Assembly: GCA_030698935.1 (NCBI GenBank)
Contig: JAUYLR010000022.1
Coordinates: 1-15,831 of the forward strand
Source of the DNA: a bacterium
GTDB lineage: Bacteria > Patescibacteriota > Minisyncoccia > Phycocordibacterales > UBA2100
DNA length: 15,831 bases
Reading direction: 5' to 3'
Below, in pieces: positions 1,076 to 14,373 of this stretch; within the stretch, counting starts at the first letter, position 1; the number at the start of each line of letters is the position of its first letter. The translations under genes were made by a program, and so were the position numbers. The notes beneath the pieces are model-generated. The model made no database searches. It was not told the DNA's origin and worked only from the letters and a program-made list of their open reading frames with translations.

Positions 1076-1783
1076 ATGGGACCCGATATTGATGCAAAGA
1101 TGTTGAGCGAGAAGTTAACGGCTCGCTTCAAAGAACTACCGAAGGCGCTTCAGACCGCAATTCTGTCCGCGGATATTGAAAAGCGGTTGCGCGAACTTTC
1201 GGAGGTCCACAAACTGCACCTTGACCAGTGGCAAGGTCTTGAAAATGAGGTCATGCTCGCACTCTTGGGCTTCCAGCCGGGGGAAAAACTGGGCGAGAAC
1301 CTTAAAAACGCAATTGGCGTTTCCGAAGAGGACGCGCAGGCTCTTGCGGAAGATATTGCGGATGCAATTTTCAAGCCCATACGAACAGAGCTTGAGCGGG
1401 CCTTGGGAAAACCGCTGGAGGAGGAGGAAGAGCCTGTAGGGAAAGAGGAAGAGCTTGTAGCCAGTAGCCAACAGCCAGTAGCCAGAGAAACACAAGTGCC
1501 TGCGGCCAGAGACTCGGGTTCAATTTCTCCAGCACCCACTACAAGCTACAAGCTACAAGCTACAAGCTCACCCTTGCAAACGCCGGCTCAAACGATAATT
1601 GAAAATGTTCCGCCAAGACCGGTAGAAGTGAAAGTGGTTCCTCCCGTTGCCTCAACTCCGCCAGCGCCTGCACCGGCACAAAAATCAGTCCGCGCCGTGT
1701 TGTCGCCCGCATATGCGCCGGATACCAAGAGCCATGAGCGGAAATCTGTTGACGACGACCCTTATCGCGAAGCGATAAGTTAG
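1076..1783 (+). CDS. Helical hypothetical protein of T4SS-type cluster, with repeat-derived linker
   Basis: 235 aa, not recognised as a named family. Residues 1-112 are predicted all-helical, with short segments such as LPKALQTAIL and EDAQALAEDIADAIF. Then come a Glu patch (115-119), a low-complexity Pro/Ala/Ser/Thr/Gln linker, and a charged tail ending DPYREAIS. There is no signal peptide or membrane segment. Residues ~126-165 are encoded by an inserted heptad inverted repeat (1452-1568), which explains the LVASSQQPVA and SYKLQATS peptides; the ancestral linker was probably shorter. Start choice: ATG 1076 is the first in-frame ATG. The AGGAG at 1056-1060 is 15 bases away, which is long. The ATG at 1066 is better spaced but opens a different frame ending after 8 codons. 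A proline-rich linker with a short conserved-looking tail ahead of prgI suggests a soluble cluster partner; its role is unknown. Confidence 0.75.
   Translation: MGPDIDAKMLSEKLTARFKELPKALQTAILSADIEKRLRELSEVHKLHLDQWQGLENEVMLALLGFQPGEKLGENLKNAIGVSEEDAQALAEDIADAIFKPIRTELERALGKPLEEEEEPVGKEEELVASSQQPVARETQVPAARDSGSISPAPTTSYKLQATSSPLQTPAQTIIENVPPRPVEVKVVPPVASTPPAPAPAQKSVRAVLSPAYAPDTKSHERKSVDDDPYREAIS
1452..1568 (+). repeat. Heptad inverted repeat inserted in a coding region
   Basis: Left arm 1452-1483 is a run of 7-base units with core AGCYNNT (for example AGCTTGT, AGCCAGT). Right arm 1538-1568 contains CTACAAG four times in tandem, which is the reverse complement of CTTGTAG. The arms are inverted copies separated by 54 bases. 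The words match the elements at 11406-11501 and 14281-14373. The insertion keeps the host frame open: because 7 is not a multiple of 3, three units make seven codons, so the arms read as short heptapeptide-like strings. The period and inversion are seen directly; insertion is inferred from the intergenic relatives. Confidence 0.8.
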
Positions 1784-1791
1784 TCGTCGTC
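1751..1791 (+). other. Strong stem-loop spanning the stop codon of the 235-aa gene
   Basis: Outer stem GACGACGAC (1751-1759) pairs with GTCGTCGTC (1783-1791). Inner stem CTTATCGC (1761-1768) pairs with GCGATAAG (1772-1779), closing a GAA loop. The only defect is a C opposite TTA. The stop codon (1781-1783) lies in the stem. No T-run follows, so this is not a standard intrinsic terminator; it may be an mRNA 3'-end or processing structure. The heptad arm of the next element begins two bases later. Confidence 0.6.
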
Positions 1792-1830
1792 GAAGCTTCT
1801 AGCTTCTAGGGACTAGCTGCTAGCTACGAC

Positions 1831-2199
1831 GTCTTTGCGAGCGTAGCGAAGCAATCCAGTACATATTCGCATAGCGTCGCTTATGATTCCTTGCGTATAC
1901 ATTCTTGCGAGCAAGAGAAATGGCACATTGTATACGGGAGTAACGTCGCATCTGGAAAAACGGCTACAGGAACATCGATCAGGAACAGTAGAGGGGTTCA
2001 CTAAGAAATACCACGTGTACACGCTTGTATATTACGAGGTGCACGAGACAATGTTTGATGCGATATCACGTGAGAAGCAGATCAAAGGCGGTTCTCGGAA
2101 AAAGAAGTTGAGTTTGATTGAGGACATGAATCCAATGTGGAGAGACTTGTCTGAAGACCTGTAGCGCTAACTAGATTGCTTCGCTACGCTCGCAATGAC
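1831..2199. mobile_element. GIY-YIG cassette bounded by 26-bp inverted repeats (inner)
   Basis: Bases 1831-1856 and 2174-2199 are inverted copies with 25 of 26 positions matching; the inner 22 (1835-1856 and 2174-2195) are perfect. The core reads TTGCGAGCGTAGCGAAGCAA on the + strand. Unlike the neighbouring repeats it has no clear 7-base period. The only gene inside is a 93-aa GIY-YIG protein, whose start is 26 bases from the left repeat and whose stop is 9 bases from the right one. Similar CGCAATGAC-ended repeats are, from general familiarity, dispersed in many bacterial genomes. Mobility in association with the nuclease is inferred. Confidence 0.55.
1883..2164 (+). CDS. Small single-domain GIY-YIG nuclease
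   Basis: 93 aa, the usual length of stand-alone GIY-YIG proteins, which are often mis-named after UvrC. Motifs in order: CVYIL at 4-8 (the GIY position), LYTGVT at 16-21 (the YIG position, with the second catalytic Tyr at 17), KRLQEH at 26-31 carrying the conserved Arg27, FTKKY at 39-43, YYE at 50-52, and REKQIKG at 63-69 with the probable metal-binding Glu64. The catalytic set looks complete. The expected activity is single-metal DNA cleavage; the natural target is not predictable. It lies in a cluster of secretion genes but is bounded by near-perfect 26-bp inverted repeats, so it is more likely element cargo than a cluster component. There is no clear ribosome binding site before ATG 1883. 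Confidence 0.88.
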   Translation: MIPCVYILASKRNGTLYTGVTSHLEKRLQEHRSGTVEGFTKKYHVYTLVYYEVHETMFDAISREKQIKGGSRKKKLSLIEDMNPMWRDLSEDL

Positions 2200-2286
2200 A
2201 CAAGATACGAAGAAACCAATGCACTGCTATCCGAAGTGAGCAGGATGTTGCGTGTTATGATAGAGAAACTGGAGACAAGCAACTAG
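2200..2286 (+). pseudogene. Possible C-terminal remnant of a four-helix-bundle (S23) gene
   Basis: Immediately after the right GIY-YIG repeat a frame reads 28 codons to TAG 2284-2286: an amphipathic helix with segments ALLSEVSRML and RVMIEKLE. Its spacing of Leu/Glu/Met resembles the last helix of the intact S23 protein at 3632-3988 (LEQEATELMMILSSIM). It ends 17 bases before a heptad arm, as the intact S23 gene ends 27 bases before its own arm. No N-terminal S23 motifs remain. This may be the stump left when the GIY-YIG cassette entered an S23-bearing element. The match is short and could be chance. Confidence 0.35.
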
Positions 2287-2341
2287 CTGTCATTTCTGTT
2301 TTTCCTAGAAGCTAGAAGCTAGTCCCTAGCAGCTAATCCCT

Positions 2342-2830
2342 ATGCAATTCCAAGTCCCTCAATTTATTGAAGTTGAAGATAAGATTTTCGGGCCGCTCAC
2401 GTTCAAACAGTTCGTGTACGTGGCCGGAGGCCTCGGCGCATGCTACCTTTTCTGGAAAGTCCTGCCCGCCCTTATCTCCGCCCCCCTTATCGCCGTGACG
2501 TTCGCGCTCGCCGCCGTTCTCGCATTCTTCAAATTCAACGGCAGGCCGTTCATCAACGGGCTTGAGCACGGATTTTACTTCCTCATCCGGAGCAAGCTCT
2601 ATCTATGGAGAAACGATGAGAACGGGAGGGAGCGCATGGCGACGAAAAAACAAATGCTGGAGAAGCAATCTCAGGCGCGGGAGAAATCGCTCGTACATGT
2701 CCCCAATCTTACCGACAGCAGGCTCCACGACTTGGCGTGGAGTTTGGACATAAAGGAGCGCATCGCCGACAGCGAGGAAGAGAATGTGTCTATCGGGACA
2801 CCAGCACGGTCGTCGCATGACCTTACATAG
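2342..2830 (+). CDS. PrgI-family membrane protein
   Basis: 162 aa. The N-terminus has the PrgI pattern: QFQVPQFIEVEDKIFGPLTF (2-21), then two adjacent hydrophobic helices (about 23-41 and 44-64), then FNGRPF and a soluble charged C-terminal half. PrgI proteins are small inner-membrane components found next to VirB4 in Gram-positive and CPR type IV secretion systems, probably filling a VirB3-like place beside the ATPase. Order and direction (PrgI, VirB4 partner, VirB4) fit. Start ATG 2342 directly follows a heptad arm, with no Shine-Dalgarno. Stop 2828-2830 is followed after 11 bases by another heptad hairpin. The C-terminal ~70 residues are less conserved-looking and their role is unclear. 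Confidence 0.85.
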   Translation: MQFQVPQFIEVEDKIFGPLTFKQFVYVAGGLGACYLFWKVLPALISAPLIAVTFALAAVLAFFKFNGRPFINGLEHGFYFLIRSKLYLWRNDENGRERMATKKQMLEKQSQAREKSLVHVPNLTDSRLHDLAWSLDIKERIADSEEENVSIGTPARSSHDLT

Positions 2831-2841
2831 GGAATAAGTTT

Positions 2842-2928
2842 CAGGTGCCAGGTAACAGGTTAAAATTAAAACAATGAAACTCCAAGAAACACATTCTCCT
2901 GACACCTGTAACCTGACACCTATAACCT
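2842..2928. repeat. Heptad inverted repeat (CAGGTNN family) between prgI and the VirB4 partner gene
   Basis: Left arm 2842-2862 reads as three 7-base units starting CAGGT (CAGGTGC, CAGGTAA, CAGGTTA). Right arm 2901-2928 is inverted (units ACACCTG, TAACCTG, ACACCTA). Left versus reverse-complemented right agree at about 17 of 21 positions. The spacer is about 38 bases and AT-rich. The right arm stops six bases before the ATG at 2935, leaving no room for a Shine-Dalgarno. In mRNA it would form a hairpin inside the presumed operon. Confidence 0.75.
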
Positions 2929-2934
2929 AATCGT

Positions 2935-3585
2935 ATGCCCGGTACCCTTGCAAATAAAAAATCAACCCAGGATTTCGTCCCCGTGAAAGAGGTGCGCGAC
3001 GGAATTATCGTCCTCAAAGACGGCGGGCTGCGCGCGGTCTTGCTCGCGTCATCCATAAACTTTGCGCTGAAGTCGGACGACGAGCAAACCGCGTTCATCA
3101 CCCAATTTCAGAGCTTTCTGAACTCGTTGGATTTTTCCGTGCAGATATTCATTGAGTCGCGCATGCTGGATATCCGCCCCTATGTCGCCACGCTTGAAGA
3201 CGCATACAAAGAACAGCTGGACGACCTGATGCGCATTCAGATACGCGAGTACATAGAGTTCATCAAGAGTTTCACCGAGACCGCCAGCATCATGACAAAA
3301 AATTTCTTCGTGGTAGTGCCGTACTCCTCCGCGGGAATCAGCGCGGGGCTCTCGGGTCCCGCCTCGTTCCTGCCGTGGGGCAAGAAAAAAGGTTCCACGG
3401 AGGCGGAGAACAAGTCGTTCGGGGAGCAGGTGTCGCAGTTGGAACAGCGCATCGGCATCGTCCAGCAGGGGCTTGTGCGCACCGGCGTCCGCACCGTGCA
3501 GCTTGGCACGGAAGAAGTGATAGAACTTCTGTACAAATTATTCAACCCCGGCGAAGAGGGGAAGCCGATGGTACTTGAGCAGTAA
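2935..3585 (+). CDS. VirB4-partner protein of CPR-type T4SS cluster (VirB4 N-terminal-like)
   Basis: 216 aa. The segment STQDFVPVKEVRDGIIVLKD (10-29) and the following ASSINFALKSDDEQ are the hallmark start of the protein that precedes VirB4 in many CPR secretion/competence clusters. It resembles the N-terminal non-ATPase portion of TraC/VirB4 proteins. The rest is mixed alpha/beta, with a charged loop near FLPWGKKKGSTEAE and a helical end (LEQRIGIVQQGL, EEVIELLYKLFN). There is no Walker motif, so ATP hydrolysis must come from the separate VirB4 downstream. It probably docks to VirB4 at the inner membrane; that is inference. Whether the two were once one ORF is unclear. The S23 element lies exactly between them, with its arm starting at the base after this TAA stop. 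Start ATG 2935 gives the expected N-terminus. Confidence 0.7.
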   Translation: MPGTLANKKSTQDFVPVKEVRDGIIVLKDGGLRAVLLASSINFALKSDDEQTAFITQFQSFLNSLDFSVQIFIESRMLDIRPYVATLEDAYKEQLDDLMRIQIREYIEFIKSFTETASIMTKNFFVVVPYSSAGISAGLSGPASFLPWGKKKGSTEAENKSFGEQVSQLEQRIGIVQQGLVRTGVRTVQLGTEEVIELLYKLFNPGEEGKPMVLEQ

Positions 3586-4048
3586 ATCCGAAGCACGAAG
3601 CACGAAATCCGAAAAAATTATAAATCCAAATATGAAAAAAGAAGGCCGCAAATATGACTTGGAAGAAAGGAGTTTTTTGTTTGCAAAGAATGTGCGAGCT
3701 TTTGTGAAGACCTTGCCGCGTTCTATAACGAGCATTGAAGACACGAAGCAACTTGTGCGGTCATCTGGCTCAATTGGCGCAAATTATATTGAGGCGAACG
3801 AATCGTTGAGCAAGAAAGATTTTTTGCTGCGAATACGCATTTCGCGAAAAGAGGCAAAGGAAAGCAAATTCTGGTTACGGCTTATTGAGACCTCCACAAC
3901 AGACATAGAAAAGGAGCGTGCACGCCTTGAACAGGAGGCGACAGAGTTGATGATGATTTTAAGTTCTATTATGAGGAAATATGTTTAAACTTTCTTTATT
4001 TTTTGTTTTTCCCCGTTTTTTCGGATTTCGGATTTCGGATTTCGTGCT
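3586..4048. mobile_element. Heptad-armed element carrying an intact S23 gene
   Basis: Left arm 3586-3617 is ATCCGAA, GCACGAA twice, then ATCCGAA and an A-run. Right arm 4016-4048 is the inverted form: a T-run, TTCGGAT repeated, then a unit containing TTCGTGC. The right arm has extra ATCCGAA-type units, as expected of tandem 7-mers that change copy number. The enclosed gene is a 118-aa four-helix-bundle protein. The element fills the gap between the VirB4 partner stop (3583-3585) and the virB4 ATG (4062). Inverted ends around an S23 gene recall the intervening sequences of some 23S rRNAs, which carry the same protein family within a stem. Confidence 0.65.
3632..3988 (+). CDS. Four-helix-bundle protein (23S rRNA intervening-sequence / S23 family)
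   Basis: 118 aa, typical for the family. Recognisable landmarks: KYDLEERSFLFAKNVRAFV (7-25), QLVRSSGSIGANYIEANE (40-57), KKDFLLRIRISRKEAKESKF (61-80), WLRLI (81-85), and a last amphipathic helix from about 95. The family forms basic four-helix bundles. It includes proteins encoded in 23S rRNA intervening sequences and is related to the Avd accessory protein of diversity-generating retroelements; its biochemical role is poorly known. Start ATG 3632 gives the family N-terminus. The frame is open further upstream, but that part is heptad repeat and not expected to be translated. There is no Shine-Dalgarno. It is flanked by inverted heptad arms and interrupts the secretion operon, so it is best read as element cargo. 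Confidence 0.9.
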   Translation: MKKEGRKYDLEERSFLFAKNVRAFVKTLPRSITSIEDTKQLVRSSGSIGANYIEANESLSKKDFLLRIRISRKEAKESKFWLRLIETSTTDIEKERARLEQEATELMMILSSIMRKYV

Positions 4049-4061
4049 TACTATATAGTCT

Positions 4062-5969
4062 ATGGCTCTCCTTGACCTCTTCAAAATTAAAAAGGCGGCT
4101 CCCGAAACCTCCGCGTTGCCGATACTGCCCGAGGAAATTTATTCCGCCGGTGTTTTGGATTTGCAGGACGTCATCGCCCCGCATGCCTTGAAAATAAGTT
4201 CTCGCGAGCTTGATTTGGGCGAGCGGATTGCGCGTACGTTTTTCGTCATATCGTATCCGCGCTTTCTCACAACGGGATGGTTCGCGCCCATCATCAACAT
4301 GGACAAGGTGTTGGACATCTCCATATTCATCCATCCGATGGACACGAGCGAAATGCTGCGGAAATTCCAGAAAAAAGTCGCCGAGGTGCAGAGTCAGATA
4401 TCCACGCGCGAACAAAAGGGAATGGTGCGCGACCCGATGCTGGACACCGCGTATTCCGACCTTGAGAACCTGCGCGATTCTCTCCAGCAGGCGCAGGAAC
4501 GCATCTTTGAGGTCGGCCTGTATTTGACCGTGTACGGCAATACGCGCGAGGCGATAGATAAAATTGAATCCGAGATACGCTCTGTGCTGGAATCCCGCCT
4601 CGTCTACATCCGCCCCGCGCTTTTCCAACAGGAGCAGGGGTTCCGGAGCGTTCTCCCGCTCGGCAACGACGAGCTTGATGTGCACACGAAACTGAATTCC
4701 GCGCCGCTCTCGTCAATATTCCCGTTTATTTCATTTGACCTTACTTCAAACCGCGGCATTTTGTACGGAATAAACCGCCACAACTCTTCTCTCATTTTGT
4801 TTGACCGTTTTTCTCTGGAAAATTACAACTCGGTCATGTTCGCTAAAAGCGGTTCCGGAAAGAGTTATATGACGAAATTGGAAATCCTGCGCTCGCTTAT
4901 GTTTGATACGGAAGTTATCGTCATAGACCCCGAACGCGAGTATGAATATCTGGCATCCGCCGTCGGAGGCCGGTACTTCAACATTTCACTCTCATCGGAA
5001 CACCATATCAATCCGTTTGACCTCGCTATCCCGCGCGAGGATGAAAACCCTGCGGACATACTGCGCTCCAACATCATTACGCTGGTCGGCCTCTTCCGCA
5101 TCATGCTCGGAGGCCTTAGCCCTGAAGAAGACGCCATTATTGACAGAGCGATAACGGAAACGTACGCGCTCAAGGACATTACGGCGGACGCAAATTTTGC
5201 GGCGATAGAGCCCCCGCTGCTCTCGGACTTTGAGCTCGTGCTCTCGGGCATGGAGGGGAGCGACTCATTGGTCCAGCGGCTTTCAAAATACACGAAGGGC
5301 ACATGGGCCGGTTTTATGAACAGGCCGACAAACGTGGACATGAACAAAAAACTCGTCGTCTTTTCCGTGCGCGACATGGAGGACGACCTGACACCGATTG
5401 CCATGTACATCATTACGCACCACATCTGGAACGTGGTGCGGAAGGAATTGCGCAAACGCCTGCTTGTCATTGATGAGGCGTGGTGGATGATGCGTTCCGC
5501 GGACACGGCTTCGTTCCTCTTTTCCATCGCAAAGCGGGGGAGAAAATATTTCCTTGGAATTTCCACTATCACGCAGGACGTTTCCGACTTCCTCAACTCG
5601 CCCTACGGAATTCCCATGATTACAAACTCTTCAATTCAATTGCTTTTGCGGCAATCGCCGACCTCGGTTGATTTGGTGCAACAGACCTTCAAGCTTTCGG
5701 ACGAGGAAAAATACCTCCTTCTGGAATCCGATGTGGGGGAGGGAATTTTCTTCGCCGGATTGAAGCACGTGGCGATTAAAGTCATCGCCTCATACACGGA
5801 AGACCAGATAATCACTTCCGACCCGTCGCAAATCCTCGCCATCCGCAAGGCAAAGCAGGACCTTGCCGATGCGGACAGCGCAGAAGCCGCGGCCGCAATT
5901 TCCGCTGACGCCGCTCCCGCTCTGCCGCCTCAAAGCACTGTCCCGAATTCTGGAGGAACGACGCGATGA
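4062..5969 (+). CDS. virB4: VirB4-like T4SS ATPase
   Basis: 635 aa. The N-terminal ~250 residues form the VirB4/TraC-like non-catalytic domain (IARTFFVISYPRFLTTGWF and a helical hairpin region). Walker A is AKSGSGKS at 261-268; Walker B is LLVIDEAWW at 467-475 with Asp471/Glu472. After it comes the arginine/Gln-rich helicase-like core (SIAKRGRKYFLGISTITQD, SSIQLLLRQSP). The tail is Ala/Pro-rich and variable. It powers assembly or substrate movement in a type IV secretion/DNA-uptake machine and would sit at the inner membrane with PrgI and the partner protein. No VirD4 coupling protein or relaxase is in view, so uptake/competence is as likely as conjugation. ATG 4062 lies 13 bases after the S23 element arm and lacks a Shine-Dalgarno. 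The stop overlaps a small ORF by ATGA. Confidence 0.93.
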   Translation: MALLDLFKIKKAAPETSALPILPEEIYSAGVLDLQDVIAPHALKISSRELDLGERIARTFFVISYPRFLTTGWFAPIINMDKVLDISIFIHPMDTSEMLRKFQKKVAEVQSQISTREQKGMVRDPMLDTAYSDLENLRDSLQQAQERIFEVGLYLTVYGNTREAIDKIESEIRSVLESRLVYIRPALFQQEQGFRSVLPLGNDELDVHTKLNSAPLSSIFPFISFDLTSNRGILYGINRHNSSLILFDRFSLENYNSVMFAKSGSGKSYMTKLEILRSLMFDTEVIVIDPEREYEYLASAVGGRYFNISLSSEHHINPFDLAIPREDENPADILRSNIITLVGLFRIMLGGLSPEEDAIIDRAITETYALKDITADANFAAIEPPLLSDFELVLSGMEGSDSLVQRLSKYTKGTWAGFMNRPTNVDMNKKLVVFSVRDMEDDLTPIAMYIITHHIWNVVRKELRKRLLVIDEAWWMMRSADTASFLFSIAKRGRKYFLGISTITQDVSDFLNSPYGIPMITNSSIQLLLRQSPTSVDLVQQTFKLSDEEKYLLLESDVGEGIFFAGLKHVAIKVIASYTEDQIITSDPSQILAIRKAKQDLADADSAEAAAAISADAAPALPPQSTVPNSGGTTR

Positions 5970-6040
5970 GTACGGGACAGGGGGACGAGCGCGCATTTCT
6001 TCCGCAGTATGTGCAACGGTATCCGTCAAACACGATATAA
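5966..6040 (+). CDS. 24-aa ORF overlapping the virB4 stop
   Basis: ATG 5966 overlaps the virB4 TGA as ATGA. It is preceded by GGAGG at 5952-5956, one of the best Shine-Dalgarno sequences in the window. The frame gives 24 residues (beginning MSTGQGDERAFLPQYVQR) and stops at TAA 6038-6040, inside the TATAAT of the next promoter. The setup suggests translational coupling to virB4. The peptide has no membrane segment and I recognise no family. It may be a real microprotein or simply the vestige of a former gene start. Confidence 0.35.
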   Translation: MSTGQGDERAFLPQYVQRYPSNTI

Positions 6041-6041
6041 T
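6036..6041 (+). promoter_or_regulatory. -10 hexamer of a leaderless promoter for the 6048 operon
   Basis: A perfect TATAAT at 6036-6041 ends six bases before ATG 6048, so transcription would start at or next to the A of the start codon. No Shine-Dalgarno precedes the ATG. The -35 region (around 6013-6018, GCAACG) is weak. Confidence 0.5.
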
Positions 6042-6047
6042 TGGCCC

Positions 6048-7073
6048 ATGCAGGCAAGAAGCAAAATATTTTTTCTGCTCGTCTTTTTGGTGTTTCCCGC
6101 CGGCTTGCTTCACGCGCAATTAATCGCACAGGGCACTGCGGGTGAAATCGTCATCAGGATGACGCCGGAAAATCCCGTGCCCGGCGGGTACGTTCATCTT
6201 TCCGCTTTCAGCTCGGCGATAGACTTGGAGAGAAGCGATATAACGTGGTACGCGGACAGAAACATTATCGCGCAGGGACTCGGAACTACGGAAACGGATA
6301 TTGCCGCGGGTACTGCGGGAACGGAAATTGACGTCGTCGTCATCGCGCAAGATGCGAGTGGCAGAACGGCCTCCGGAGAGGCATTCATCCGGCCGGCGGA
6401 AGTTGACCTCGTGTGGGAATCCGATTCATACGTCCCTCCTTTTTACAGGGGCCGCGCCCTGCCTTCCGCGGGAACAAAAATCCGCGCATATGCCATTGCA
6501 CAGTTGAAACTTTCTAACGGAACACCCGTGCCGGAGAGCGATATAACATATACCTGGCGGCGCAACGGATCCGTCATTCAAACCGCATCGGGCAGGGGAC
6601 GGTCGTTTGCGATATTTTCCGCCCCCACGCTTTTCGGTACGGACTTGATTGAAATAGAGGCGGTTTCTGCGTACGGTACGCTTTCCGGAAAGGCGGGCTT
6701 GAGCATTTCTTCGGTGGAACCCGTTCTGGGGCTCTATGATGACCATCCTGTTTTTGGAATTTTGTACAATAACAAATTCGGCATTACAGCGTCCGTAAAA
6801 GACGCAGAAAAGACCTTTGTCGCCGTGCCGTACTTCGCGCAAGCCAATAGTTCCGACGACTCGCAACTCGTCTACAATTGGCGGGTGAACGGCCAGAGCG
6901 TTGCGGCGGATTACGCGCGGCCAAGCGCGATTACGATAAACTCAGAGAAATCGGACGGTAATGCGGACATTTCTCTCTCGCTCACGCGCCTGCGCAATTG
7001 GTACATGAAAGCGGATGCGGCGTGGAAAATTTCTTTCCCTGCCGGAGGAAGCGGTGCTACCGGCACACAATAA
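6048..7073 (+). CDS. Exported Ig-like repeat protein of the T4SS-associated operon
   Basis: 341 aa from ATG 6048. Residues 1-23 form a signal peptide (basic start, hydrophobic core FFLLVFLVFPAGLL, cleavage likely after LHA). The mature part is beta-rich with at least three Ig/PKD-like stretches: TPENPVPGGYVHLSAFSS with DITWYAD, then DITYTWRRNGSVIQ, then LVYNWRVNGQSV. The recurrent 'W/Y-x-x-NG' after a polar strand is characteristic of surface or periplasmic Ig-like modules. There is no enzyme motif. An upstream frame extension exists but would remove the signal peptide from the N-terminus. It is the first gene of a tight operon (gaps of 3 and 1 bases). A cell-envelope structural or adhesive role with the secretion system is inferred only from position. 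Confidence 0.75.
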   Translation: MQARSKIFFLLVFLVFPAGLLHAQLIAQGTAGEIVIRMTPENPVPGGYVHLSAFSSAIDLERSDITWYADRNIIAQGLGTTETDIAAGTAGTEIDVVVIAQDASGRTASGEAFIRPAEVDLVWESDSYVPPFYRGRALPSAGTKIRAYAIAQLKLSNGTPVPESDITYTWRRNGSVIQTASGRGRSFAIFSAPTLFGTDLIEIEAVSAYGTLSGKAGLSISSVEPVLGLYDDHPVFGILYNNKFGITASVKDAEKTFVAVPYFAQANSSDDSQLVYNWRVNGQSVAADYARPSAITINSEKSDGNADISLSLTRLRNWYMKADAAWKISFPAGGSGATGTQ

Positions 7074-7076
7074 TAT

Positions 7077-8366: not shown

Positions 8367-8367
8367 T

Positions 8368-9282: not shown

Positions 9283-9284
9283 TT

Positions 9285-9782
9285 TTAGTTCGCCGCGTAT
9301 TTAATCACAACCCTGCGATTCTTTCCTTCTCCGGAAGATTCCGTTTTTACATTCGGCGAATCTGAAAGCACCGTGTGCACTATCAGGCGTTCGTAGGCAT
9401 TCATCGGCGTGAGTTCAACATCATATTGAAATGAGCGCGCGCGTTCGGCCATCATAATCGCTTTAGTCTCCAATTCTTTTATCTGCTTCGCGCGATAATC
9501 GTTGACATCCACCAGAAATTGAAGGTATTCAACCGGCACTGCCTCTCCGCCGGACGCTTGTGTTTCCTTTGCTTTTGCAGAGGAGCGGTTTTCCGCTATT
9601 TTTTTCACAAGGTGATCAATGGCGTGCACCGTATCTCCGTGCATGCCGATGAGCTGTCGCGCATCCTGCATCTGTATCGCAAATATTGTCTGGCCCGCGA
9701 GCACCGTTTTCACAACACCGGTATGAGCGACACCAACCGCATCGAGTAGTTCTTTGAGAATTTCTTCAACAGCGGCTTCCAT
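9285..9782 (-). CDS. jag: Jag/KhpB RNA-binding protein (KH + R3H)
   Basis: 165 aa. A KH-type domain covers ~1-105 with the loop GMHG (46-49) in RQLIGMHGDTVHAIDHLV. The R3H domain at the C-terminus shows PMNAYERLIVHTVL with Arg132 and His136 in R-x3-H spacing, then ESSGEGKNRRVVI. The separate N-terminal Jag domain of Firmicutes proteins is absent, as in many CPR and other short versions. KhpB binds RNA and is linked to cell division and elongation control. Its place downstream of yidC matches the classical rpmH-rnpA-yidC-jag order. The KH loop lacks the usual Lys/Arg immediately after the first Gly. ATG is at 9780-9782. The stop is only two bases from the convergent gene, so no room exists for an intergenic terminator. 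Confidence 0.92.
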   Translation of the reverse strand: MEAAVEEILKELLDAVGVAHTGVVKTVLAGQTIFAIQMQDARQLIGMHGDTVHAIDHLVKKIAENRSSAKAKETQASGGEAVPVEYLQFLVDVNDYRAKQIKELETKAIMMAERARSFQYDVELTPMNAYERLIVHTVLSDSPNVKTESSGEGKNRRVVIKYAAN

Positions 9783-9832
9783 TGAGCCACTATACCCCGC
9801 AAGATAATAAAATCAAACTATACCACGTGTAG

Positions 9833-9938
9833 CCAATTTCCAATGTTAAATTTCTAATTTCAAATTAATGTAGCAATGCGTTAATGTTTAAAACATTTGG
9901 ACATTGTTTTAAAATTTATCATTTGGAATTGGGCATTG
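9833..9938. repeat. AT-rich heptad inverted repeat between jag and yidC
   Basis: Left arm 9833-9870 consists of 7-base units (CCAATTT, CCAATGT, TAAATTT, CTAATTT, then CAAATTA). Right arm 9893-9938 runs in units such as ACATTTG, GACATTG, ATTTATC and ATTTGGA. Reverse-complemented, it matches the left arm over about 21 bases with small indels. The right arm ends three bases before the yidC stop (TAA at 9941-9943 on the minus strand), so it sits exactly at the gene boundary. Most of the 158-base jag-yidC gap is this element. Confidence 0.65.
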
Positions 9939-9940
9939 AC

Positions 9941-10663
9941 TTATCCATTGAATCTCCGGCCCATCAACAGTTCCTGCGCAATCATTGCGGTATTGCTCGT
10001 GACCCAGTAGAGCGCCGCGGCGGATGGCACCGTGTAGGCAACCACCCCGATGATTACCGGCAACACATATCGCGCCTGCAGGTCAAAACTCCTGGCCATA
10101 TCTCCGGCAAATGAAGCAGTGGTAGCACTCTTCTTCTTCCGCTCGCCCATGGAAAGGCGCGTGTACGCAATCTGCGTTACCGCGGCAAGAACAGCGAGAA
10201 TCACGCTTTTTCCCGCCATATCTATCAGACCGAGAAACTCCATGTTGACTCCCGCGGGCGCCGGCACGAAAGAGTAGAGAAGGGCGGCATCTATTTCCGG
10301 AAGGCCGCCGAATGCGAACACCCAGTAGAGCGCAAACAGTATCGGGAGTTGTACAAGTATCAATCCAAAACTTGCGAACGGATGGATATCGTTCTCCTTG
10401 TAAAGAGCAAACATTGCCTTTCCCTGCTGCTCGCGGTCATTTTTGTATTTCTCTTTAAGCAGCTCCATTTCAGGCGCAATCTTTTTCATCTTTTGCTGCG
10501 CAACTATGGCCTTCTTGGAGAGGGGGTACAGGACGACGCGTACGATGATGGTGAGGATTATGACGGCGAGGCCCACATCATGCGAAGGAAGTACTCCTAC
10601 GATAGAAACGAGCCCGTTGTAGAGCGGGTTGTAGATGGCCGTGTTGAACGCTGATGAAATCAT
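9941..10663 (-). CDS. yidC: YidC/Oxa1-type membrane insertase
   Basis: 240 aa from the ATG giving MISSAFNTAIYNPLYNGL; the ATG 18 bases upstream is a possible alternative. This is the short Gram-positive/CPR form without the large periplasmic domain of E. coli YidC. The Oxa1 core is visible: first membrane helix LAVIILTIIVRVVLYPL with the groove Arg42, basic cytoplasmic coiled hairpin (about 49-90, KKAIVAQQKMKKIAPEME), then LILVQLPILFALYWVF, further helices near 150-170, and the paired final helices with PSAAALYWVTSN. It inserts membrane proteins alone or with SecYEG. Neighbours are rnpA and jag. The 120-base gap to rnpA is too short for yidD, which often lies there. Confidence 0.95.
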   Translation of the reverse strand: MISSAFNTAIYNPLYNGLVSIVGVLPSHDVGLAVIILTIIVRVVLYPLSKKAIVAQQKMKKIAPEMELLKEKYKNDREQQGKAMFALYKENDIHPFASFGLILVQLPILFALYWVFAFGGLPEIDAALLYSFVPAPAGVNMEFLGLIDMAGKSVILAVLAAVTQIAYTRLSMGERKKKSATTASFAGDMARSFDLQARYVLPVIIGVVAYTVPSAAALYWVTSNTAMIAQELLMGRRFNG

Positions 10664-10783
10664 TGCGGTAGTATACCCCATGAGATACGCGTGCCCAACT
10701 CTTAAGAATTTCTGATTGCCTCATGCTCTATGTACCAATAATCCGCGACCGCGGAAAATCGGTACACGGCATATGCATTATTA

Positions 10784-11140
10784 TTACGAGGTACGGAGCT
10801 TTGCGCCTGCGCGCGCGATGAGCATGTCCACGTCGTTCTTGATGTCGGCATATGATGCATTGCGTGCAGGACGCATGGCATAAAAAACGAGTGCAGACGG
10901 CGCAGGGGCAGAAGGGAGGCAGTGACGCATCGCATCCCGCCATCGGCGTTTTATTACATTCCTATCAACCGCGCGCGCGGCGGTTTTTTTGGAAACAACG
11001 CAGGCAGTCTTACATTCCCGCGGTTTTTGGCCCGCAAGAACCCCAAAGGAGAGAATAAAGAGGGAGCCGCGTTCGCGACGGAACTTTGCCCTCTCCGCGC
11101 GCAGAAACTCCGCGTGCGTCAGTGAATTTTTACGTGGCAT
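10784..11140 (-). CDS. rnpA: Ribonuclease P protein component
   Basis: 118 aa from ATG at 11138-11140; a TTG four codons upstream is less likely. The family signature ARAVDRNVIKRRWRDAMR lies at about 56-73 and corresponds to the RNR motif that contacts the RNase P RNA, followed by a C-terminal beta-alpha segment (ALVFYAMRPARNASYADI). It is basic throughout. It assists the catalytic RNA in maturing tRNA 5' ends. It lies directly downstream of rpmH, as in most bacteria, and 120 bases upstream of yidC. The start is preceded not by a Shine-Dalgarno but by a 16-bp perfect palindrome. Confidence 0.93.
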   Translation of the reverse strand: MPRKNSLTHAEFLRAERAKFRRERGSLFILSFGVLAGQKPRECKTACVVSKKTAARAVDRNVIKRRWRDAMRHCLPSAPAPSALVFYAMRPARNASYADIKNDVDMLIARAGAKLRTS

Positions 11141-11141
11141 C

Positions 11142-11186
11142 CGATTTTGCAAAATCGCGTCGCGTACTGTCCTTTGTTACGCGACG
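11142..11186 (-). other. Palindrome plus hairpin between rpmH and rnpA
   Basis: CGATTTTGCAAAATCG at 11142-11157 is a perfect 16-bp palindrome ending one base from the rnpA ATG. It is directly followed by a 9-bp perfect stem (CGTCGCGTA 11158-11166 with TACGCGACG 11178-11186) around an 11-base loop. Together they fill most of the 53-base rpmH-rnpA gap. They could tune rnpA relative to rpmH by processing, attenuation or masking of the start; the GC-rich stem is not followed by a T-run on either strand. Confidence 0.5.
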
Positions 11187-11193
11187 GAAACGC

Positions 11194-11328
11194 TCACACC
11201 GAGAGCTTCGCCCGTCCCTTTCTGCGCCGGCGCTTCAGGAGCGCGCGGCCGCTGGTCGTGGCGGATCGCTTGCGGAATCCGTGTGTCCGTGACCGCTTTC
11301 TTTTTTTCGGCTGGTATGTTCGTTTCAT
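11194..11328 (-). CDS. rpmH: Ribosomal protein bL34
   Basis: 44 aa on the minus strand, ATG at 11326-11328 and TGA at 11194-11196. The protein starts [20 protein letters not shown] and ends in a very basic [12 protein letters not shown], matching bL34 from end to end and at normal length. It is a small basic protein of the large ribosomal subunit that lies against 23S rRNA. It begins the leftward rpmH-rnpA-yidC-jag gene row that conventionally flanks the chromosome origin next to dnaA. A plausible promoter lies just upstream. Confidence 0.97.
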
Positions 11329-11336
11329 ATGCGTGT

Positions 11337-11365
11337 ACTGTACCTGCCAATGAAGAATAAATCAA
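11337..11365 (-). promoter_or_regulatory. Candidate promoter of rpmH-rnpA row
   Basis: On the minus strand TTGATT (+ coordinates 11360-11365) and TACAGT (11337-11342) are 17 bases apart. This places the start of transcription very near the rpmH ATG (11328), another short-leader or leaderless arrangement. Both hexamers deviate from consensus, so this is a moderate call. Confidence 0.4.
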
Positions 11366-11405
11366 CTGTGCTATACGAATTTCTACGTTTCTAATATTTG
11401 CGGTG

Positions 11406-11501
11406 AGCCAGCAGCTTGTAGCCTGTAGCTTGTAGCCATTCAAAAAATAAAACCTTGTGTGTTTCTTCCGGCTACTGGCTACGAGCTACAGGCTAATGGC
11501 T
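11406..11501. repeat. Heptad inverted repeat (AGCYNGT family) upstream of dnaA
   Basis: Arms 11406-11437 and 11470-11501, each 32 bases, match as inverted copies at 25 of 32 positions. Both break into 7-base units such as AGCTTGT and AGCCTGT. The 32-base AT-rich loop contains ATTCAAAA, which is also in the loop of the copy at 14281-14373. It lies between the divergent rpmH and dnaA genes, immediately next to DnaA-box-like sites. Confidence 0.85.
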
Positions 11502-11530
11502 ATCCCCACCCTATCCACACCTTATGAACA
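11500..11530 (+). promoter_or_regulatory. Three DnaA-box-like sites at 11-bp spacing upstream of dnaA
   Basis: CTATCCCCA (11500), CTATCCACA (11511) and TTATGAACA (11522) resemble the TTATCCACA consensus with 2, 1 and 2 mismatches. They are exactly 11 bases apart on the same strand, so they face the same side of the helix. They lie just upstream of the dnaA promoter, suited to dnaA autoregulation or an upstream origin sub-region. Confidence 0.5.
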
Positions 11531-11553
11531 CAGGCGGGAAAAATATTTGTGCT

Positions 11554-11580
11554 TTGCTAAAGGAAAGGTGCGCGTATAAT
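11554..11580 (+). promoter_or_regulatory. dnaA promoter with perfect -10
   Basis: TATAAT at 11575-11580 ends nine bases before ATG 11590. A weak -35 (TTGCTA, 11554-11559) lies 15 bases upstream. Transcription would begin within a few bases of the ATG, giving an almost leaderless mRNA. This supports 11590, not the earlier in-frame ATG at 11524, as the start. Confidence 0.5.
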
Positions 11581-11589
11581 GACGGGCCT

Positions 11590-12966
11590 ATGCAAACAAC
11601 CTCAATGGCGGCCATGACGAACCGCGAACTTTGGCAAAATGCTCTGGTCCAAATTGAACTCGGTACCTCCGAAGCAAGTTTTCGCACATGGTTCCGCAAC
11701 ACGGACATCGGAAGCAGGGACGGGAGCACCGTGCACGTCGCCGTCCCGAGCAAAATCGTCAAAGAGTGGCTGGTGGAGAAGCATCACAAGCTCATACTGA
11801 AGGCTCTCCGCTCACTGGACAGCACCATACGGACGGTTGAGTATACGGTGCACCGTTCCGCAACCCCGGCAACCGCGGAGAGAAAGCCGGGGAGGGCTCC
11901 GTCGCCTGAAAACGCGTCGTTTGATCTCCAATCTCTCTACATAGACAAGCGCGACAACCTCAACCCGCGCTACACGTTTGAAACATTTGTCGTCGGCCCG
12001 TTCAACCAGCTCGCGCACGCCGCCTCAAAAGCAATTCTTGAGAGGCCCGGCCAGATATACAACCCGCTTTTTATCTACGGCTCCACGGGACACGGAAAAA
12101 CTCACCTCATACAAGCGGTGGGCAACTATTTCAAGAAGGCGCACGCCAATAAAAAAGTTCTCTACGTGACATCCGAGCGGTTCGCGGTTGATTACATCAA
12201 TGCCGTGCGCGCCGGACGCGCGAACAGCTTCAAAGACCAGTACCGCCAGTACGATGTGCTGATAATGGATGACGTTCAGTTCATTGCAAACACCGAAAAA
12301 ACACAGGAGGAGCTTTTCCACCTCTTCAATGCGCTCCACGACAACAACAAGCAGATAGTTTTCTCATCAGACAAGCATCCGAACTTTCTTCCGGGGTTTG
12401 AGGACCGCCTCCGCGGACGCTTTTCGGCCGGCATGATAGCGGAAATACCGGAACCGGATATTGAGTCCAGAACGGCTATAATCAAGGCTAAAATAGAGCA
12501 GCACGGGTTTAATATTCCGGACGATATCATCCAGTACATAGCGGAAAGCGTGCGCGGAAACATACGGGAACTTGAGGGGGTGCTCAATATGATTGTCTGC
12601 AAGTCCCAACTGAAGGGGAAGGCGGTGTCTCATGCGGATGTGCGGGCGCTCGTGAAGCATAACGTGAAACCGAATAAGGGGGTTTCTATTGAGGAGGTTG
12701 TGCGCAGGATATCCCTCTACTACGAGATTCCGGAAAAGAGCATTTACGAGAAAACGCGAAAGAAAGAGGTGGTGAAGCCGCGCCAAATAATTATGTATAT
12801 GCTCCGCGAAGAATTTAATGTCTCATACCCGTCTATAGGCGAGAAGTTGGGGGGGCGCGACCACACAACCGTCATTCATTCATGTGAAAAAATAAAACAT
12901 GAGATAAAAACAAATGTCTCATTGGAGCAGGAGGTTGAGCATATACGCTCTCTCATCCACTCATAA
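11590..12966 (+). CDS. dnaA: Chromosomal replication initiator DnaA
   Basis: 458 aa, normal length. Domain I covers about 9-85 (MTNRELWQNALVQIEL, FRTWFRNT, KEWLVEKH). Domain II is a short Pro/Ser-rich linker. The AAA+ domain has Walker A GSTGHGKTHL (164-173), Walker B LIMDDVQF (from 224), sensor I in IVFSSDKHP, the Arg-finger region RLRGRFSAG, and sensor II NIRELEGVLN. Domain IV carries the DNA-binding signature GGRDHTTVIHSCEKI (GRD near 422). It binds DnaA boxes and melts the origin, and the adjacent 12967-13181 region carries candidate sites. In-frame ATGs at 11524, 11605 and 11614 are alternatives. I chose 11590 because the TATAAT at 11575-11580 lies inside any longer coding region. No Shine-Dalgarno is present. 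Confidence 0.97.
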   Translation: MQTTSMAAMTNRELWQNALVQIELGTSEASFRTWFRNTDIGSRDGSTVHVAVPSKIVKEWLVEKHHKLILKALRSLDSTIRTVEYTVHRSATPATAERKPGRAPSPENASFDLQSLYIDKRDNLNPRYTFETFVVGPFNQLAHAASKAILERPGQIYNPLFIYGSTGHGKTHLIQAVGNYFKKAHANKKVLYVTSERFAVDYINAVRAGRANSFKDQYRQYDVLIMDDVQFIANTEKTQEELFHLFNALHDNNKQIVFSSDKHPNFLPGFEDRLRGRFSAGMIAEIPEPDIESRTAIIKAKIEQHGFNIPDDIIQYIAESVRGNIRELEGVLNMIVCKSQLKGKAVSHADVRALVKHNVKPNKGVSIEEVVRRISLYYEIPEKSIYEKTRKKEVVKPRQIIMYMLREEFNVSYPSIGEKLGGRDHTTVIHSCEKIKHEIKTNVSLEQEVEHIRSLIHS

Positions 12967-13181
12967 CATGTTGATAGGGTGTGAATATATATATAACAAC
13001 ACCCCCATAACTCTTTCTAAAAAATATATTTTGAAAAATAAATCTAACAACTTCCACCTATCAACATCTACTCAACATACGTCTGTCCAAAAAATATCCA
13101 CTCATTACAATATAAAAACATCTTATACACACTATACACATCAATAGTAGTAATAGTATTTAATATATATAAATAATATCT
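12967..13181. other. Candidate oriC (dnaA-dnaN intergenic region)
   Basis: 215 bases, strongly AT-rich, between dnaA and dnaN, the commonest bacterial origin position. DnaA-box-like 9-mers: CTATCAACA at 12969-12977 (minus strand) and at 13058-13066 (plus), ATATCCACT 13094-13102, TTATACACA 13123-13131 and CTATACACA 13132-13140. The last two are immediately adjacent and followed by TAG/TAA triplets. AT tracts lie at 12985-13050 and 13157-13180. The dnaN promoter presumably also lies here. Absence of any well-supported gene supports the assignment. Confidence 0.7.
13123..13159 (+). promoter_or_regulatory. Predicted basal origin unwinding element (tandem DnaA boxes plus DnaA-trios)
   Basis: Two head-to-tail DnaA-box-like sites (TTATACACA, CTATACACA) are followed after TCAA by TAG TAG TAA TAG from 13145 to 13156 and then TAT and an AT-rich tract. 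In Bacillus subtilis the basal unwinding system has the same order: double-strand DnaA boxes, then TAG-type trinucleotides bound as single strand by the growing DnaA filament. Order and strand fit; function is predicted. Confidence 0.55.
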
Positions 13182-14282
13182 ATGCGACTAACAACTACAA
13201 AAGAAAAAATTCTCTCTGCAGCTGTTATAGCTGAACGTATTGTTGGTAAGAAAGAATCACTACCAATTCTTTCTTGTATTTTATTGGATGTGGGGGGTGT
13301 TGTATCTGTACGTTCAACAAATTTGGAGGCGGGAGTTGATATTGGTGTGGTTGCGGAAATTGAAGAGAGGGGAATGATAGCGGTGCCGGCATTAATATTC
13401 TCACAAACAATACGGTCAATAAGTGCTGATAAGGTTGTTCTTAAGACAGATTCTGAAAATCTGATTGTGGAGTCCCGCGGAACCAGAACCCTTATAAAGA
13501 GCGTTCCACACGAAGAATTTCCGAAACTCTCATGGGGTGATGATGGAAAGAAAAGCACATCCATCGGGCGCCTCTCAATAATAAAGGGAATTCAATCTGT
13601 CTTATATTCCGCCTCCCACTCCATGATTCGCCCCGAACTAGGCAGTGTGTATGTGTCAATTAAAAAAGACGGAGTAACATTTGCGGCGACAGATTCATTC
13701 AGACTGGCGGAGAGGGTGATAAAGGGAGGGGTGTCTTCCGGAGAGGGGGAGTTCCTCATCCCGCTCAAGCATGCGGCGGAGCTCGTATACGTATTGGAGC
13801 GTAATTCCTGCGAGAACGTGAAGATAAACACGTCAGATTCACAACTTGTCGTTTTAATGGAACATGTCCGTTTTGTGGCGCGCGTGGTGGACGGAATATT
13901 TCCGAACTACACTGAAATTATTCCGAAACAATTCAGCACGGAGGCGACTATATTGAAAAATGATTTCGCCGAGATGTTGCGCAAGGCGCGCGTGTTTTCA
14001 GGGAACGATCAGTATGTGGGGCTCCATGTGTATCCGAAGAAGAAGATTTTCTCCGCGACAGCGCAGAGCCCGGATGTGGGCGAGACATCGGATTCAATTG
14101 ACGCGGCGGTGTCGGGCGAAGACATAGATATAAACTTTCACATCGGCTATCTTTCGGATTTCATCGCCGCAATAGATTCCGACAGCATAACGTTAGGATT
14201 TTCCGGCCCCAACAGGCCGCTCGTTATCCGCGGAGCCGCAGACCCCGGCTTTACATACCTTGTGATGCCGCTCAACCGATAG
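13182..14282 (+). CDS. dnaN: DNA polymerase III beta sliding clamp
   Basis: 366 aa, normal length, three clamp-fold domains by pattern. Recognisable landmarks: ESLPILSCILLDV, VPALIFSQTIRSI, VPHEEFPKL, ATDSFRLAERVI (typically TDGHRLA), FLIPLKHAAELV (cf. the conserved 'IPRKAV'), DGIFPNYTEIIP (cf. 'GxFPDYxRVIP'), and the C-terminal VMPLNR, equivalent to the conserved 'PMR' tail. The first ~90 codons are noticeably richer in A/T than the rest, merging with the origin region. It tethers the replicative polymerase to DNA. It follows dnaA across the candidate origin. The TAG stop (14280-14282) overlaps the first base pair of a heptad hairpin that separates it from the convergent penicillin-binding protein gene. 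Confidence 0.96.
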   Translation: MRLTTTKEKILSAAVIAERIVGKKESLPILSCILLDVGGVVSVRSTNLEAGVDIGVVAEIEERGMIAVPALIFSQTIRSISADKVVLKTDSENLIVESRGTRTLIKSVPHEEFPKLSWGDDGKKSTSIGRLSIIKGIQSVLYSASHSMIRPELGSVYVSIKKDGVTFAATDSFRLAERVIKGGVSSGEGEFLIPLKHAAELVYVLERNSCENVKINTSDSQLVVLMEHVRFVARVVDGIFPNYTEIIPKQFSTEATILKNDFAEMLRKARVFSGNDQYVGLHVYPKKKIFSATAQSPDVGETSDSIDAAVSGEDIDINFHIGYLSDFIAAIDSDSITLGFSGPNRPLVIRGAADPGFTYLVMPLNR

Positions 14283-14373
14283 CCATCAGCCGGTAGCTAG
14301 TAGCTTGTAGCCAGAAAAATTCAAAAGAGTGTTTTGTATTTTGCTACAGGCTTCCGGCCACAAGCTACTGGCT
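14281..14373. repeat. Heptad inverted repeat filling the dnaN/PBP convergent gap
   Basis: Arms 14281-14312 and 14343-14373 are inverted copies, about 22-23 of 31 positions alike, in 7-base units (AGCCGGT, AGCTAGT, AGCTTGT). The 30-base loop shares ATTCAAAA with the 11406-11501 copy. The hairpin overlaps the dnaN stop (14280-14282) and the minus-strand PBP stop (14373-14375), so it is the whole intergenic region. It may serve as a bidirectional 3'-end structure. Confidence 0.85.

Follow-up and report, generated by a model that had tools for sequence, protein, structure and literature searches.

Inverted arms of five evenly spaced DNA words frame IVP-family genes in a Patescibacteriota genome and probably mark a class of small mobile elements

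The intervening sequences (IVSs) of 23S rRNA in Leptospira, Coxiella and others carry a gene of the IVP/S23 protein family (PF05635) between inverted termini, in sense orientation with the host transcript. In the Coxiella IVS, tandem heptamers lie just upstream of the S23p open reading frame (ORF), in three copies (two in some strains) and a degenerate one, and the account of them treats them, in the sections concerned, as a variable repeat without a tie to the pentameric protein (PMC4990558). Here we analyze a 15,831-nucleotide stretch of DNA, hereafter the window, which is the entire contig JAUYLR010000022.1 (contig 3) of an incomplete genome from the Patescibacteriota (UBA2100; assembly GCA_030698935.1; 678,695 bases, 111 contigs, 69% complete). 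It contains seven elements bounded by inverted arms of 7-base units, and one of them, element 4, has an IVP ORF between its arms as the IVSs do. In contrast to the 23S IVSs, the present elements lie between protein genes of many operons, usually have five units per arm and use many different core words. In the window they are located between or in protein genes, and a scan of 185 PF05635 loci with four 23S motifs returned a single locus, L125; this match is false, as the locus is a pil-type gene junction by our own reading and is negative in Rfam. We consider it likely that the elements belong to one class of small mobile elements, with ends that a ring of the IVP protein reads, one unit per subunit.

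The tryptophan RNA-binding attenuation protein (TRAP) is a ring that reads regularly spaced RNA triplets in the mRNA of host genes. The likeness to the present elements lies in the fixed spacing and in a tandem unit number that equals the number of ring subunits, with five as the modal unit number and five chains in the family structures 2gsc and 2rld; binding would be assumed by analogy. Unlike the TRAP triplets, the units here are inverted element ends and come in many cores. Miniature inverted-repeat transposable elements (MITEs) and the palindromes of the REP/RAYT system (repetitive extragenic palindromes and their associated transposases) are short elements with inverted repeats, dispersed in the genome and accompanied by less frequent gene-bearing partners. 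Dispersed short elements with gene-bearing kin are found here as well, whereas their ends are five-unit arrays, without a transposase gene or a defined target duplication. Among 20 Y1 loci, none has a best pair of at least 33 at periods 7-9, and no Y1 gene was found in the own genome at E<=0.001. Direct repeats of the heptamer TAACTGA are known near gene starts in Beggiatoaceae, Cyanobacteria and Bacteroidetes, with copy numbers of two to six, or as many as 43, some sets being interrupted by related 7-mers; there is one inverted case in the Guaymas genome (PMC4679880). In short tandemly repeated repetitive sequences (STRRs), a single 7-base word forms direct arrays whose length varies, and the present arms, with many cores, inverted pairs and a mode of five, do not fit this pattern. 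A related family and fold is found in Avd of diversity-generating retroelements (DGRs), which PF05635 is said to resemble in the relevant part of that source (PMC10053308). Avd works with a reverse transcriptase, while the present elements have none; RVT_1 was not detected in the own genome at 69% completeness, where template and variable repeats were not searched for. No description of five-unit inverted arms was found in the open-licence literature, the Coxiella heptamers being the sole forerunner. This agrees with an earlier note on this DNA, which knew of no named class, and a mobile-element class undescribed so far is the best reading.

The earlier note had described seven paired inverted repeats of different word families, with a strict 7-base unit. 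All seven pairs are present, at 1450-1563, 1792-2336, 2829-2928, 3582-4051, 9835-9937, 11405-11502 and 14280-14374, with pair scores of 34, 37, 37, 36, 35, 38 and 36 for elements 1 to 7. An arm is scored by its matches over 20 core bases (five cores of four), and the maximum for a pair is 40. Two of the seven pairs are long, with 481 and 406 nt between the arms, and bear genes. A lag scan of the window gives 11 runs at lag 7, none at lags 4, 5, 6, 8 and 10, and one each at lags 9, 11 and 12. The scans were extended to 61 contigs of the own genome (361,475 bases including 21,846 N, about 53% of the assembly), where lag 7 gives 109 runs, each other lag between 3 and 13 gives 1-18, and the harmonic 14 gives 78. 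There are 69 five-unit arrays with at least 19 of 20 matches at lag 7, compared with none at any of lags 5, 6, 8, 9, 10, 11 and 13, and the Markov-shuffled control of these contigs also yields 0. An inverted partner of at least 16/20 within 700 nt is found for 79 of 131 own arrays, a direct partner for 34 and a complement-only control partner for 10. The two outcomes that the note had named as fatal to its idea, no genome-wide excess of inverted lag-7 pairs and equally common other lags, did not occur. Its view that one shared cause underlies the different words and the paired inverted layout is retained here.

A typical arm is 32 nt long and holds five 4-base cores, one per 7 bases, so that about four bases of each unit are constant and three are variable. 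In the middle units the agreement is 0.86-1.0 at core bases and 0.35-0.56 at spacer bases; in the outer flank it is 0.20-0.32, and the core profile drops off on both sides of the five cores. Both arms of a pair have the same core in inverted orientation and are equally kept (mean scores 18.0 and 17.97 of 20). When own arrays are grown from three-unit seeds, 13 reach three units, 44 four, 63 five and 7 six; the count is thus not the loose range of three to six units per arm given earlier, but peaks at five. Five is also the modal number over 47 core strings, some of them mutual rotations, and at periods 7 and 8, period 9 being represented by few arms. In own arrays, a sixth unit on the outer side does not rise above background, and among 268 arms of IVP loci it occurs (at least 3 of 4 core bases) in 11/220, 5/38 and 1/10 at periods 7, 8 and 9. 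The corresponding counts for an inner sixth unit are 33/220, 11/38 and 3/10. This inner excess is small, because the level is similar two and three units further inward: 26/218 and 29/216 for period 7, 9/38 and 7/37 for period 8. In the inward reading direction, C is scarce (0.06-0.09) at core positions 2-4 and G is not (0.23-0.35), a hint that the reading is from one strand. Units share an identical 3-base spacer word at a rate of 0.17-0.19 within an element and only about 0.03 (0.034) between elements of the same core; units are therefore probably copied inside elements. In one IVP clade (L076, L077, L080, L081, L104, L105) the spacer words are often CCA/CAC and GGT/GTT, which are near-complementary and frequently alternate. 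To be noted, some GTAT elements have only 2-5 nt between the arms and are inverted dimers of arms (L017 3542-3607, L036 2733-2798, L054 2379-2446 and L025 6206-6274).

The full-length element of this type bears a single gene, which encodes the IVP protein. In the window, the intact copy is located at 3632..3988 on the plus strand within element 4 and codes for 118 residues of the 23S_rRNA_IVP/S23 family (PF05635, E 6e-14; PDB 2rld, E 1e-11). It is framed by the left arm at 3582..3613 (plus strand, CGAA core), whose outermost unit GTAA contains the stop codon of the upstream gene, and by the right arm at 4020..4051 (minus strand), immediately 5' of a VirB4-like gene at 4062. Six IVP genes are present in this genome and each has a core of its own: TAGC(G), GTAT, AATT, CGAA, a poor ATCA, and CGTT at lag 9. 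Three of them have pair scores of 37-40, the window copy 36 and one 32, and the broken sixth scores 25 at lag 7 and 33 at lag 9. We examined 185 PF05635 loci, composed of these 6, 69 from relatives (in one list of matches 75 of 80 were examined, the omitted ones being two pieces in G020:C67 and those in G020:C64, G040:C27 and G025:C4), 30 at phylum level for which a locus could be used, and 80 on named contigs from taxa including Bacteroidota, Verrucomicrobia, Clostridia, Myxococcales, Acidobacteria, Phycisphaerae and ANME-1 archaea. They are mostly the top-scoring family members and not a random draw, and at least one duplicate is among them (L174 and L079 are one place). An IVP ORF between paired arms scoring at least 33/40 is found in 134 of the 185, across many phyla, with period 7 in 110, period 8 in 19 and period 9 in 5; at this threshold, the best pair never falls at lag 5, 6, 10, 11 or 12. 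Random sites reach it in 2/185 cases on the own contigs and 2/185 on a Sphingobacteriales chromosome, and Y1-transposase loci in 1/20, at lag 6. From a further list of 42 places 24 were tested, 19 of which score at least 33/40; 8 of the 24 were already among the 185, and 11 of the 16 new loci, from eight genomes outside the candidate phyla radiation (CPR), pass. Many bacteria and some archaea have elements of this kind where two genes meet.

The core of the arms and the lineage of the IVP protein go together. For period-7 loci, protein identity and unit similarity are correlated (Spearman 0.49; none of 500 Mantel permutations is as high), and IVP clades have common cores, in a poorly resolved tree. 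This correlation alone could be a product of joint descent. A sharper case is provided by element 2, which has a CTAG core (left arm 1792..1823, plus; right arm 2305..2336, minus) and retains only the C-terminus of an IVP gene, 28 codons and a stop at 2200..2286 on the plus strand. Among the IVPs compared, the best matches of this remnant are the CTAG-core proteins of L075, L171 and L174/L079, with scores of 95, 91, 86 and 86 (the last two being the one place named above), while the next match scores 73 and the maximum over 50 shuffles is 43. As judged from these protein matches, the CTAG arms alone predicted which IVP had formerly lain in element 2. In the wider comparison, the own GTAT protein has GTAT-core proteins as its top three matches, and the own AATT and CGAA proteins have first matches in relatives with other A-rich cores. 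Short pairs make up 24 of the 35 strong own pairs, and gene-bearing kin in the same genome are IVP copies with GTAT, AATT, CGAA and TAGC(G) arms. For the short pairs with CTAG, AGGT and TAGC with other spacers, an intact IVP partner was not found in the own genome, which is 69% complete.

The model of the window protein is a predicted four-helix bundle with a mean pLDDT of 92.7. Its best structure matches are 2rld and 2gsc, followed by the DGR protein Avd (4dwl and 8ub7, E 0.02-0.03), and a profile search of the PDB returned 2gsc and 2rld only, each with 5 chains. The relative from Xanthomonas is mentioned as a toroidal homopentamer within a source that concerns the Coxiella IVS (PMC4990558). 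The simplest reading of the five units would be one per ring subunit. Six columns of the protein (Q, R, S, N, E and E) are invariant or nearly so over very diverse sequences, and they are candidates for contact or catalysis.

We propose the following scheme. A full-length copy would comprise a left arm, as a rule of five direct units, the IVP gene, and a right arm of the same core in inverted orientation; short copies with 2-92 nt between the arms and broken copies would be its nonautonomous derivatives. That the arms belong to the IVP gene is shown by the counts of paired arms and by the phylogeny, where core and protein lineage travel together. In the next step, a pentameric IVP ring would hold one end, each subunit reading one core, and two rings would mark or pair the two ends. 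The substrate may be double-stranded DNA, single-stranded DNA or RNA. By a route that we infer, the element would then enter new sites, often directly at a stop codon where two same-strand genes of an operon are tightly joined; insertion there would leave the host genes intact and let the IVP gene be co-transcribed with the operon. Cutting and joining might be done by IVP itself, by a host enzyme, or by a protein supplied in trans. A more far-reaching version, to which we give about an even chance, holds that the class is widespread and selfish and moves with a single small protein, the IVP/S23 ring, that it has five units at each end, re-invented core and spacing (7, 8 or 9 nt) and stop-codon targeting, and that the 23S IVSs are special cases of it.

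For the joint occupied by element 4, which separates the gene at 2935-3585 from the VirB4-like gene, 30 genus genomes were compared, the own included; they are those with a locus among the 47 that have the VirB4-like gene. The joint is empty in 12, with 1-5 nt from stop to start, and filled in 15 by pairs scoring 32-38 of 40 with CGAA, CTAG, ACAG, TAGC, GTAG, AGTA and AACA cores; an IVP-sized insert is present in 3 of these 15. One junction of the remaining three has a single arm, and two are unclear (24 and 27). The single arm, in L284 (G233), is a lone CTAG arm without partner, possibly an excision or deletion scar. A tree built from the VirB4-like gene requires no fewer than 8 changes between filled and empty, and at least 14 over all types with spacer flavours kept separate, though many branches are weak. 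The window genome and its sister G253 have different element types at this joint. Repeated turnover at the VirB4 junction is nevertheless evident. At the dnaN junction (element 7), the pair is absent in one relative and the left arm is worn in another.

The elements lie close to stop codons in tight joints. Of 134 loci, 105 have the IVP gene co-directional with both neighbours and 3 have it opposed to both; for control genes the figures are 81 to 25 and 36 to 27. Where an upstream stop lies within 150 nt, it ends at most 7 nt from the outer edge of the left arm at 43/88 CPR loci and 21/34 others (loci without a telling title were counted as CPR). After subtraction of the element, the junction measures 30 nt or less at 53/80 and 27/34 loci, although in two controls no more than 1.6-2.2% of the intergenic bases between same-strand genes belong to such junctions. 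Five junctions were inspected, namely sdhA|sdhB, fadB|thiolase, araA|araD, MoxR|DUF58 and deacylase|argH. In cases such as sdhA|sdhB and fadB|thiolase, the flanking proteins extend to their profile ends at the joint; AraA at araA|araD stops 10 profile positions early. Among 34 short gene-less elements of the own genome, a gene stop is found within 10 nt of the facing edge in 21 (15% expected) and a gene start in 14 (7% expected), and 7 of the 34 are at convergent sites. Both targeting of stop codons and survival of harmless insertions are possible explanations of this location pattern.

Several observations weigh against the proposed class or against a count of five. A target duplication is not readable from empty and filled sites, the hosts being only 64-86% identical. 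The arms themselves account for part of the coincidence with stop codons, as they carry stops: all three frames have stops in 47/110 left arms and 30/110 right arms. Two of the 34 short own elements lie within ORFs, and with a cruder ORF mask 15/35 pairs are mostly in ORFs. Of the PF05635 loci, 51/185 are below threshold, some of them weak family matches or decayed, and 52/131 own arrays are without a close inverted partner. The weakest unit of an arm is the outermost one. If only contiguous good units are counted, period-7 arms have five in 112/220, four in 60, six to eight in 35 and two or three in 13, and period-8 arms have five in 17/38, six to nine in 13 and three or four in 8; period 9, with 3 arms of four, 3 of five, 2 of six and 2 of seven, is too small to judge. 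Furthermore, no catalytic domain was recognised in IVP by searches with family profiles and structures.

Other explanations account for parts of these data. The arms may be regulatory RNA sites, with IVP binding RNA as a ring in the manner of TRAP, and arms within the operon mRNA tuning translation of the downstream gene, and the co-directionality of IVP with its neighbours and the placement in tight operon junctions beside stop and start codons are what this would predict. We regard it as unlikely, since the right arm in mRNA is the complement of the core, yet is kept as well as the left (period 7), a single junction is, across the genus, either empty or occupied by elements of differing core types, and convergent sites are used too. 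A plain hairpin function (terminators, RNase III sites as in the 23S IVSs, or REP-like palindromes), with the 7-base grain as a by-product, draws on folding: four of the five short window elements fold better than every shuffle and the fifth better than 190/200 (z -2.0 to -6.1), which also counts against our proposal. The paired termini of the known 23S IVSs are cut by RNase III, as stated in the portion of the source on processing (PMC4990558). However, the cores alone suffice for good predicted RNA hairpins, and spacer identity in hairpin register is 0.53 against 0.52 for randomly paired units of the same element, with no compensatory changes above chance. Spacers in register match no better than random ones, and arm pairing is therefore not what is conserved. 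A stem moreover has no need of a period or of exactly five units, and Rfam has no family on 12 sources; we find this explanation quite unlikely.

The earlier note had suggested that slippage or reverse transcription makes the 7-base tandem arms. The spacer words shared within elements are consistent with some copying, but as the cause of period and layout we judge such a process highly improbable, and this part of the note is not supported: the copy number peaks at five, cores stay constant while spacers vary, the arms share cores tied to lineages of one protein family, and periods 8 and 9 exist as well. These features rather speak for units that are read by a protein. RVT_1 is present in 18 of 52 genus genomes, and was found neither in the own genome (69% complete) nor in G253, G254, G023 and G021, three of which have a different element type at the VirB4 junction; a reverse transcriptase was thus rejected as the partner. 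Mobilisation in trans by a Y1 transposase (REP-associated, IS200-like), with IVP as a passenger, gains from the presence of Y1_Tnp in 45 of 52 genus genomes, often in several copies, and is still very unlikely in our view. No Y1_Tnp was found in the own genome at E<=0.001, none of 20 Y1 loci has a best pair of at least 33 at periods 7-9 (two have a single period-7 array), and the arms track the IVP lineage. The Y1 transposase was accordingly dropped as a candidate partner.

A GIY-YIG nuclease ORF of 93 residues (1883..2164, plus; PF01541, E 1.7e-17) is nested within element 2. It has a separate repeat family, with one inverted repeat at 1831..1860 (plus), 93% complementary to its partner at 2170..2199 (minus). 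This repeat of about 22 nt occurs at 19 places in the 61 own contigs, several as inverted pairs 45-120 nt apart, and besides the two window copies it is located in L013, L015, L017, L033, L037, L039, L045, L055, L067 and L070; three further GIY-YIG genes exist in the genome. As its own inverted repeat occurs at 19 places, GIY-YIG was set aside as the enzyme of the element. Two weak PF05635 matches adjoin a reverse transcriptase, at G011:C15 5924-6229 (reverse transcriptase 5166-5696) and G020:C64 1281-1586 (1833-2471). These are probably Avd genes of DGRs, and no arms were found at the former (L095).

The remaining window elements are short. In each, the left arm is given on the plus and the right arm on the minus strand. 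Element 1 (left arm 1450..1481, five units of 7 with a GTAG/TAGC-type core) lies within the ORF 1076-1783 and has period 7 in TRF; its right arm at 1532..1563 is placed by the pair score, with a lag-7 run at 1539-1568. In element 3 (2829..2860 and 2897..2928; AGGT core) the two outer units of the left arm are weak. Element 5 (9835..9866 and 9906..9937) has an AATT core, and the TAGC-core element 6 (11405..11436 and 11471..11502) is located upstream of dnaA. Element 7, also with a TAGC core, overlaps the dnaN stop codon with its left arm (14280..14311), and its right arm (14343..14374) overlaps by 2 nt the stop end of a convergent penicillin-binding protein gene. The genes of the window include type IV secretion system-type genes (PrgI, VirB4-like), an R3H protein, dnaA, dnaN (by our own reading) and a transpeptidase. 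An AT-rich segment between dnaA and dnaN (12967-13181), possibly the replication origin, is free of elements.

The origin of the 23S IVSs is called unclear 25 years after their discovery in the part of the literature that bears on it (PMC4990558). If our proposal is true, a symmetric ring would be read out as five evenly spaced DNA words, a recognition principle that is not known to us for the ends of mobile elements. PF05635, a family of many phyla for which no function is described as known, would obtain a testable function, and with it the 23S rRNA intervening sequences as well. The many rings and cores would form a natural set of pairs for deciphering the recognition code. In this organism, it would account for about 100 seven-base arrays in the analysed half of a small genome.

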